Below, piece by piece: positions 14,015-16,531 of a DNA stretch of 64,000 nucleotides; positions within the stretch are counted from its first letter, which is position 1; each line of letters begins with the position of its first letter. Origin of the DNA: Synechococcus sp. CS-1330 (GTDB lineage Bacteria > Cyanobacteriota > Cyanobacteriia > PCC-6307 > Cyanobiaceae); assembly GCA_025128025.1 (NCBI GenBank), contig JAHLYR010000007.1, forward strand, positions 62,001 to 126,000, read 5' to 3'. Below the pieces are notes generated by a model. The model saw only the letters and a list, made by a program, of their open reading frames with translations. It had not been told where the DNA came from and did no database searches. The position numbers were made by a program, and so were the translations under genes.

Positions 14015-14338
14015 CTAGGCGGTGGCCTCCAGCTCAGACTTCATGCGCTCCAGGGTCTGGTGCATCTGCTGGAACATGGTTTCCGGTGTCATGCCGAACT
14101 GGCCCAGCTGGGTGCGTAGCTGCTCCACGGTGAGCTTTGCCTGGAAGTCTTCGGAGAGCTCGAAGCGCTTCATGAACACCCTGTAGCGCTCCATCATGTC
14201 TTCCATCCTTTCGATGTAGAGCTTCTTGCCCTCGCGATCAAACTTGCCGTACTCACTACCAAGCTGCATCAGCTGCTGGTAATCGCCAAACAGCCGCTTG
14301 GCTTCGTCCTGAACGATTTCGGATTCAAAGAACGCCAT
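14015..14338 (-). CDS. DUF1825 family protein
   Basis: A 107-residue, largely helical, charged protein conserved in cyanobacteria, without assigned function. The N-terminus [20 protein letters not shown] and the centre [20 protein letters not shown] are typical of the family. The open frame continues upstream of the ATG at 14338, but the added residues are unrelated low-quality sequence, so the short version is chosen. Divergent to the LuxR-type regulator gene, with 142 bases between the starts. Confidence 0.85.
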
Positions 14339-14480
14339 AACCCTGGCAGCGCAGCGTTTGCAGATTCTGGTGAGGCCTGGCACCCCTGGGGAGTGCGGAT
14401 AGGCGTATTGCCCCTGGCGGATCGAGCGGAGCTGGCCAGGATGGCGCCAGTGCAGGGCCCCAGCACAGACTTCAGCGCCG

Positions 14481-15182
14481 ATGGACTTCACTCCCAAGCT
14501 TGAGCAGATCCGGCGCAACACCAGCCAGATCAACAACCTGCTGCGGGATGCCCGCCTGGTGGCCTGCCTCGGCAACCGGGCCCTGCTCAGCTTCTTTGTG
14601 GGCGGCCTGATCGGCCAGGAGCACCTGGTGGGTGCTGCCACCTGTGAGGCCGCCGGCCTGGAGTTGGTGGAGCGGCACCGGCCCTCGATGGTGTTTCTCA
14701 GCGACACCCTGGAGCAGGGCTCGGGCGTGTCCTTGCTGCTGCAGATCAAGCAACGCTGGCCCGGCCTACACACCCTGCTGCTGATCACCCAGGAGCACCG
14801 CCAGAGCGAGATCCAAGCAGCGATCGAGGCCGGCTGCGACGGCTTGCTGGTGGAATCCCGCCTTGGGCTGGGCAGTGCCATGGCCGCCCTGCATGCGATC
14901 AGCGGTGGCGGGATCTACGTAGACCGAAGCCTGACGGAGCTGTTTCGCCGCGGACCCGGAGAGGGGGGGCCCCTTGAGCCCCTAACCGGGCGCGAACGGC
15001 AGGTGCTCAGCCTGGTGGCCGAAGGCGACACCAACGTCGAGATCGGCCAGCGGCTGTTTATCAGCGCCGACACGGCCAAAACTCACCTGCGCTCCCTCTG
15101 CCGCAAACTCCAGGCCCGCGACCGCACCCATGCCGCCGTGCTCGGCCTGCGCTGGGGCTTAATCGATTGGCCCCAAGAGTGA
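14481..15182 (+). CDS. LuxR/NarL-type regulator with a degenerate receiver domain
   Basis: A 233-residue two-domain regulator. The C-terminal LuxR helix-turn-helix (about 168-228) is intact: LTGRERQVLSLVAEGDTNVE, IGQRLFISADTAKTHL. The N-terminal half has receiver-like spacing, but the key residues look altered. The usual acidic pair near the start is replaced by CLGNRALL. The phospho-acceptor strand reads VFLSDTLEQGSG, with Ser where Asp is expected and an Asp one place later. The conserved Lys is Glu (DGLLVESR). Phosphorylation-independent control is therefore plausible. The gene leads a rightward set with the HhH and GIY-YIG genes. Confidence 0.85.
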   Translation: MDFTPKLEQIRRNTSQINNLLRDARLVACLGNRALLSFFVGGLIGQEHLVGAATCEAAGLELVERHRPSMVFLSDTLEQGSGVSLLLQIKQRWPGLHTLLLITQEHRQSEIQAAIEAGCDGLLVESRLGLGSAMAALHAISGGGIYVDRSLTELFRRGPGEGGPLEPLTGRERQVLSLVAEGDTNVEIGQRLFISADTAKTHLRSLCRKLQARDRTHAAVLGLRWGLIDWPQE

Positions 15183-15228
15183 GACCCCCGCTAGGTTCGA
15201 AGCGATTTTGATGCGGTGGCCTTCCGCC

Positions 15229-15927
15229 ATGGCCAAGCGGCACTGGTTGGATCCCCTGGCGCGTCAGCTGCTGAGGGCCACTGGCCAAATCCCGGCGGCA
15301 TCGCGCCCTGCTGCACCTGCCGATGCAGCTGCGGAGCGGGAGCGGGTTCAGAGAGAGCTGATCCAAAGGGAACTGGTGGAGCAGGAGTTGCTGGCCCTGA
15401 AACTGCAACAAAACCCAGCTCTCAAGCTCGAGGATGCTGAGGCCGTGAAGCGGGCCGCTGCCCTGGGCTGGCGGCTTGATGTGAACCGCGCCACCGCGGC
15501 TGACTGGCTGCGGCTGCCGGGCATCGCTGCCAACCAGGTGGACCTGCTGCTGCGGCTGCAGGCGGGCGGCATCCAGCTCAGCGGTGCCGACGACCTGCAA
15601 CGGGTTCTGGATCTCTCCGCTGCGCTGGTGCGCGGCTGGCTGCCCTTGCTGGAATTTCGCTGGTACGGCGAGCCATCAACGCCTTTGCAATCCGCTACCC
15701 GAGTGGATCTCAACCAGGCTTCCAGCCAGGAGCTAGCAGGGCTGGGGCTCGATCCGCCCAGGCTCAGCCGACTGCTGCGTGAACGCAGTCGCAGCCCCTT
15801 TCGCGATCTGGCAGACCTGCAACAGCGGCTGCAATTTCCCGCCGACCTGGTGGAAAGCTGGATTGGCAAGGTGAGCTTCAGGCAAGGCCCCGCCGGCCCA
15901 GCACTGCCCCCCAGCACTGGGGCCTGA
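15229..15927 (+). CDS. Tandem ComEA-like helix-hairpin-helix protein
   Basis: A protein of about 232 residues (ATG at 15229; an ATG at 15211 is also possible). After a basic N-terminus comes a Glu/Arg/Gln-rich helix likely to be a coiled coil (AAERERVQRELIQRELVEQE). Two ComEA-type helix-hairpin-helix units follow: LDVNRATAADWLRLPGIAAN...DDLQRVLDL and VDLNQASSQELAGLGL...FRDLADLQQRL. Such units bind DNA backbones without sequence specificity. No signal peptide or membrane segment is seen, unlike true ComEA, so a cytoplasmic DNA-binding role is more likely. The GIY-YIG-like gene starts 4 bases after its stop. Confidence 0.75.
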   Translation: MAKRHWLDPLARQLLRATGQIPAASRPAAPADAAAERERVQRELIQRELVEQELLALKLQQNPALKLEDAEAVKRAAALGWRLDVNRATAADWLRLPGIAANQVDLLLRLQAGGIQLSGADDLQRVLDLSAALVRGWLPLLEFRWYGEPSTPLQSATRVDLNQASSQELAGLGLDPPRLSRLLRERSRSPFRDLADLQQRLQFPADLVESWIGKVSFRQGPAGPALPPSTGA

Positions 15928-15931
15928 AGCG

Positions 15932-16531
15932 ATGGCGCGTCAAGGCGAGTTGTTTACGGCCAGCCAGCGGGGAAGCGCTGGCCGCGCCGATGCCCCTGAT
16001 CTGCCCCTGCAAGCTTCGCAGCTTCTCGACTGGCAGACCCGCCTCGCCGCCCACCAGCAGCCCCTGTGGAGCAACCAGGCTCGTGGTGCCGCGCAGGTCT
16101 CGCTGTTTGCCGGTAGCCCCGCAACGCCTGACGAGATAGCCGAGGCCTTCAACCCCCTGCAGCTCACCCCCCAGGCCCTTTCTTTCTGGCGCTGGCCCGC
16201 CGCACCCCAGCAGGGGGCAGCCCTTTATCTGGTGACAGATCGGCCCGCCGCTCTAAGCCAGCCCCTGCTGCTCTATGTGGGTGAAACCGGCCAGGCAGAT
16301 CGGCGCTGGAAAGGCGAACACGACTGCAAGGCCTATCTCGCTGCTTATAGCGAAGCCCTACTGAAAGCGGGCCTGTGCTGCCAAACCAGCATCCGCTTTT
16401 GGTTAGACGTGCCCACCGCCATCCGGCCGCGGCGTGCCCTGGAGCAGGCCCTGATTCACCGCTGGCTGCCGCCCTTCAACAAGGAAACCCGCAGCCGCTG
16501 GGCCACGCCGTTTCAAGCCGATCCCGCCTAG
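15932..16531 (+). CDS. GIY-YIG-like nuclease domain protein
   Basis: A 199-residue protein of unknown role. Residues 97-103 (ALYLVTD) and 113-119 (LLYVGET) form a GIY-YIG-like pair, followed by Arg near 124-125, a glutamate in RALEQALIHRW (near 171) and the asparagine of PPFNKE (near 183). These match the order of catalytic residues in that nuclease family, though both core triplets are divergent (LYL/YVG). The N-terminal 90 residues have no family I recognise and include a Gln-rich region. The 4-base gap from the HhH gene suggests translational coupling and a shared DNA-directed job. Confidence 0.65.
   Translation: MARQGELFTASQRGSAGRADAPDLPLQASQLLDWQTRLAAHQQPLWSNQARGAAQVSLFAGSPATPDEIAEAFNPLQLTPQALSFWRWPAAPQQGAALYLVTDRPAALSQPLLLYVGETGQADRRWKGEHDCKAYLAAYSEALLKAGLCCQTSIRFWLDVPTAIRPRRALEQALIHRWLPPFNKETRSRWATPFQADPA

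Follow-up and report, generated by a model that had tools for sequence, protein, structure and literature searches.

What do three tightly packed rightward genes do in the 64,000 nt of Synechococcus sp. CS-1330 DNA analyzed here (the window), and do they belong together? A preliminary description had proposed that a regulator, a DNA-binding protein and a probable nuclease act jointly. Its three open reading frames were recovered, all on the + strand: a gene for a LuxR-type regulator with a degenerate receiver domain (14481..15182, 233 aa), a gene for a tandem helix-hairpin-helix (HhH) protein of the ComEA/T2SK-like, DNA-binding type (15229..15927, 232 aa), and the gene for a putative GIY-YIG nuclease (15932..16531, 199 aa), which is the core of this study and starts after a gap of 4 nt behind the HhH stop codon (15927). 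The longest frame of the HhH gene spans 15208-15927 with an alternative TTG start at 15208; because relatives conserve a protein start of the form MA-x-RHWLDPLAR, the ATG at 15229 is most likely the start codon. Upstream lie a DUF1825 protein gene (14015-14341, 108 aa), which is divergent to the cluster, and, on the other strand, tyrS, while a pepA-type leucyl aminopeptidase gene follows 52 nt downstream of the nuclease gene. The names of these neighbors are readings of the open reading frames, except for DUF1825, which was matched by a profile.

Searching genome contigs with the nuclease as query returned 419 related loci, indicating conservation far beyond chance, and 80 of these were fetched. 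Nearly all 80 showed the order tyrS-DUF1825/(regulator)-HhH-GIY-pepA-msrA-lpxB. As this wider order is kept, synteny alone does not single out the three genes, but spacing does. The HhH and GIY-YIG genes are separated by ≤5 nt in 66 of 77 loci, including 22 overlaps of 4 nt, compared with median spacings of 25 nt between the regulator and HhH genes and 48 nt between GIY and pepA. The tight pair described earlier is borne out by these loci, and the HhH protein is plausibly co-translated with the nuclease in Synechococcus/Cyanobium. Outside the picocyanobacterial family, no recurrent neighbor of the nuclease gene was found in 52 loci. Among the family loci that were examined, the DUF1825 protein shares 71-99% identity with its relatives.

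The regulator is only loosely associated with this pair. It matched the GerE HTH profile of Pfam (E=1e-16), and its receiver domain stayed below the Pfam cut-off and was matched only from profile position 24. The N-terminal acidic-pair region was left unmatched by the receiver profile, no DD pair was present in the alignment, and a complete receiver with acidic pair, Asp and Lys was not found, in agreement with the earlier reading of a degenerate regulator. At least 15 contiguous loci of the picocyanobacterial family have no regulator gene between DUF1825 and HhH (L016, L022, L028, L029, L031, L039, L045, L048, L053, L055, L056, L062, L068, L069 and L078). The regulator is probably incidental and shows no consistent tie to the HhH-nuclease pair.

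The HhH protein matched Pfam HHH_3 (E=6e-5), and its AlphaFold2 model (pLDDT 89) consists of a long helix followed by two helix-hairpin-helix units, which agrees with the two HhH units behind a likely coiled coil that had been proposed. By eye, the N-terminus (MAKRHWLDPLARQLLRATG) contains no hydrophobic stretch. The best Foldseek match of the model was ComEA (8dss), with a probability of 1.00 but an E value of 0.1; the tandem HhH fold is common to both proteins. Of 24 genomes sampled from the picocyanobacterial family, all keep the nuclease and 13 have no HhH protein, Prochlorococcus-sized ones included: the HhH gene is lost in Prochlorococcus, and in Synechococcus/Cyanobium it is closely linked to the nuclease gene. 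Six HhH-less loci run directly from DUF1825 through the nuclease to pepA, with no match to HhH or regulator. Outside the family, two Synechococcus-elongatus-like genomes are the only ones with an HhH gene near the nuclease gene; HhH relatives are present in most other cyanobacteria of the class, where the nuclease is not beside them, and in many genomes that lack the nuclease. The HhH protein may aid DNA binding of the nuclease. Since the regulator and the HhH protein are variably absent, the three genes are no obligate system, and the nuclease is the constant part. Of the two points on which the preliminary description had staked its reading, the keeping of the three genes together in relatives therefore failed, and the GIY-YIG fold of the third protein held.

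The Pfam GIY-YIG profile matched the nuclease of the window weakly (E=0.1) and 19 of 26 relatives, with a best E value of 1.2e-5. Its AlphaFold2 model (pLDDT 77.6, pTM 0.75) follows a strand-strand-helix-strand-helix order. Default Foldseek with this model gave no significant match, a sequence search of solved structures gave none, and the GIY-YIG fold was seen only in a second look with VIA. The top rows of the VIA-align comparison were T4 EndoII (Z 7.0), the UvrC N-domain (6.2) and R.Eco29kI (6.0), where a Z of 6-7 is moderate, and unrelated rows ranked below these GIY-YIG matches, with one stray at Z 5.2 and the rest at ≤2.8. Within the catalytic domain (16169..16501), Y99, Y115, R125, E171 and N183 are invariant or nearly so in an alignment of about 140 relatives from the whole class, and so is the block H130-D131-C132-K133 (HDCK). 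The nuclease has the same topology and catalytic residues as the UvrC N-terminal domain, T4 EndoII and R.Eco29kI, whereas identity over the structural alignments is only 13-21% and the HDCK motif is specific to the family of the nuclease. We are highly confident that the third gene encodes a GIY-YIG nuclease, and the conserved catalytic residues together with the fold support a protein that is probably enzymatically active.

The N-terminal half of this protein, set aside earlier as uncharacterized, holds two clamp-type peptides that had been missed. It consists of a variable arm, modeled with low confidence, around a single conserved helix, which is flanked by QGELF (residues 4-8; 15941..15955) and QVSLF (residues 55-59; 16094..16108). 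Both QxxLF motifs are fixed within otherwise variable linkers: in motif 1, Q4 is conserved in 137/138, L7 in 138/138 and F8 in 132/138 relatives, and in motif 2, Q55 in 136/140 and L58 in 133/140. Motif 1 occurs in 84 of 86 non-redundant relatives (38/39 and 46/47 in the two sets) compared with 6.8 expected by shuffling (3.3 and 3.5), and motif 2 in 74 of 86 (34/39 and 40/47) against 3.4 (1.6 and 1.8). The picocyanobacterial family has QG[DE]LF as motif 1 and QxSLF-like forms as motif 2; other cyanobacteria carry QLSLF, QLNLF or QPSLF and QVSLF, QGSLF or QATLF, respectively. The pLDDT of the model falls below 50 at residues 1-3, 5-7 and 50-55, which places the peptides in exposed, flexible segments. 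Both match the consensus for binding to the bacterial sliding clamp, QL(S/D)LF (PMC9690074). Judged from these sequences, the nuclease is probably held on the beta sliding clamp by its QxxLF peptides, and the two peptides could possibly occupy both pockets of the clamp dimer. We know of no paired N-terminal clamp peptides in UvrC, T4 EndoII or R.Eco29kI.

The distribution of the nuclease was compared with those of MutL and MutS1. Of the 201 genomes of the picocyanobacterial family, 188 have the nuclease, among them all 131 good ones (≥90% complete, ≤5% contaminated), and it is kept even in family genomes of 1.6 Mb. MutL (TIGR00585) was found in none of the 201, with positive controls matched, and it was found in 241 of 281 genomes of the class and in nearly all other cyanobacteria. 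All 24 family genomes that were tested have MutS1, with the GDFFE mismatch motif intact in the sequences read, so that of canonical MutS-MutL repair the family has MutS1 and lacks MutL. Prochlorococcus MED4 was noted in 2010 to have MutS and no MutL or MutH, and its mismatch repair was left open (PMC2921402); according to a 2016 survey, several P. marinus strains lack mutL and all cyanobacteria lack mutH (PMC5101192).

Outside the family, the nuclease occurs in about 161 of 246 genomes of the class, almost all of them with MutL, and no correlation of MutL loss with nuclease presence was found. The nuclease is therefore not only a substitute for MutL and must have a role of its own too. Three good genomes outside the family lack MutL and keep MutS; of these, G433 and G441 carry the nuclease and G051 lacks it. 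G051, whose membership in the class sample follows from the counts and whose lack of nuclease and MutL was observed directly, is a complete single-contig genome that keeps MutS1, and its MutS has no C-terminal clamp peptide. Two further MutL-less genomes, 62-69% complete, were set aside. The MutL-less, nuclease-positive state thus belongs to a single clade and counts as one evolutionary event, and there is no independent correlation between MutL loss and the nuclease. The nuclease gene is not adjacent to mutS; in the genome of the window, MutS is encoded on contig C35 and the nuclease on C24. In G532 (L155), mutL is located near the nuclease gene and points toward it, an isolated case that was not seen elsewhere and was treated as chance. 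A long open frame in G445 was considered as a nuclease fusion; uncharacterized upstream sequence runs into an ordinary nuclease there, and it is probably no fusion.

The clamp peptide of MutS has moved in the picocyanobacterial family. In the MutS loci read (L139-L154 and L175-L178), most sequences from outside the family end in a clamp-type peptide, such as QLGLF (EQLGLF), QLNIF, QLDIF, QLNMF or QQLTIF, with G072 and again G051 as exceptions. None of the 11 family sequences read has such a C-terminal peptide, and eight carry an N-terminal QGSLF, QGNLF, QGDLF or QKNLF, with QGSFF in one; in the genus of the window itself (two genomes), the N-terminal peptide is an imperfect QQLSLT. Picocyanobacterial MutS is extended at its N-terminus by a long stretch that usually contains the QGxLF peptide. 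The moved peptide may reflect a changed connection to the clamp, and with QGxLF at the N-terminus of most family MutS proteins, nuclease and MutS there often share a peptide style.

The explanation that we tentatively favor is a clamp-tethered GIY-YIG nuclease whose most likely task is strand incision for mismatch repair without MutL. The nuclease would dock on the beta clamp by the two QxxLF peptides of its flexible N-terminal arm, and this tethering would let it act on freshly replicated DNA. In picocyanobacteria, where MutS1 would operate without MutL or MutH, it would supply the strand incision; MutS and nuclease would meet on the clamp, the orientation of which would indicate which strand is new. 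The HhH protein, encoded on the same transcript, would probably help the nuclease hold DNA in Synechococcus/Cyanobium and would be dispensable. That the nuclease is the incision enzyme of MutS-dependent repair or a MutS partner is, taken as a claim of its own, doubtful; slightly more doubtful is the fuller version, in which MutS and the nuclease, both docked through QxxLF, replace MutS-MutL(-MutH) as a split bacterial counterpart of MSH1.

Several known systems are comparable. Plant MSH1, in which MutS is joined to a GIY-YIG domain, provides a precedent for combining the two (PMC12292046); in plant and viral MSH1, the two are proposed to cooperate without MutL. MSH1 is one fused protein, whereas in picocyanobacteria the genes are separate and QxxLF peptides occur both in the nuclease and in most family MutS proteins. 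NucS provides a precedent for a repair nuclease that is activated by the clamp and needs no MutL (PMC8228993). EndoMS/NucS likewise acts on mismatches independently of MutL and has an LF-type clamp peptide, but it is RecB-like and recognizes mismatches by itself, whereas picocyanobacteria have a GIY-YIG fold and keep MutS. The MutL endonuclease of MutH-less bacteria is also a clamp-tethered nicking enzyme in MutS-dependent repair, but its fold is unrelated to that of the GIY-YIG nuclease, and MutL is absent from the picocyanobacterial family.

A clamp-tethered GIY-YIG nuclease could instead serve branched or flapped DNA behind the fork, like SLX1 or Cho, unconnected to MutS, and we regard this as a substantial possibility that falls short of likely. 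It would account for the coexistence of the nuclease with MutL in most cyanobacteria outside the family, which speaks for a role of its own, and GIY-YIG enzymes often act on branched DNA, according to the passage of PMC12292046 that cites Fukui 2018 on MSH1. It leaves unexplained why the nuclease is patchy where MutL is present and universal where MutL is absent, but one clade cannot decide this. The role of the nuclease alongside MutL keeps a general replication-associated nuclease nearly level with the mismatch-repair reading.

Two other explanations are less probable. The HhH and GIY-YIG proteins might be the two subunits of a single nuclease that serves repair or processes imported DNA, and clamp binding would then be incidental. 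The short gaps and overlaps between the two genes and the resemblance of the HhH model to ComEA would suit such an enzyme, and UvrC also combines GIY-YIG with HhH. However, the HhH gene is gone in more than half of the family genomes that keep the nuclease, and outside the family the pair occurs together only in the Synechococcus-elongatus-like lineage, which makes a two-subunit enzyme improbable. An anti-phage or restriction nuclease would fit the nearest folds, R.Eco29kI and T4 EndoII, and is very improbable: PADLOC and PHROGs returned nothing of note for the HhH and nuclease genes, with no match for the nuclease, viral contigs contained no relative of it, no methyltransferase gene adjoins it, its chromosomal position is fixed, and its presence is universal in good family genomes.

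Prochlorococcus and marine Synechococcus rank among the photosynthetic organisms of greatest abundance, and strand incision by the clamp-tethered nuclease, if true, would explain how MutS acts without MutL in picocyanobacteria. With or without a connection to MutS, cyanobacteria possess a widespread GIY-YIG nuclease with two conserved clamp-type peptides that is apparently undescribed in the literature searched.

Two assemblies among the fetched loci deserve mention. That of Cyanobium sp. T1B-Tous contains two copies of the locus (L002 and L007), with nucleases 91% and 73% identical, which suggests that the assembly or the culture was mixed. One record under the title Rubrivirga sp. (L038) carries the picocyanobacterial tyrS-to-lpxB locus, and its contig is probably mis-binned.
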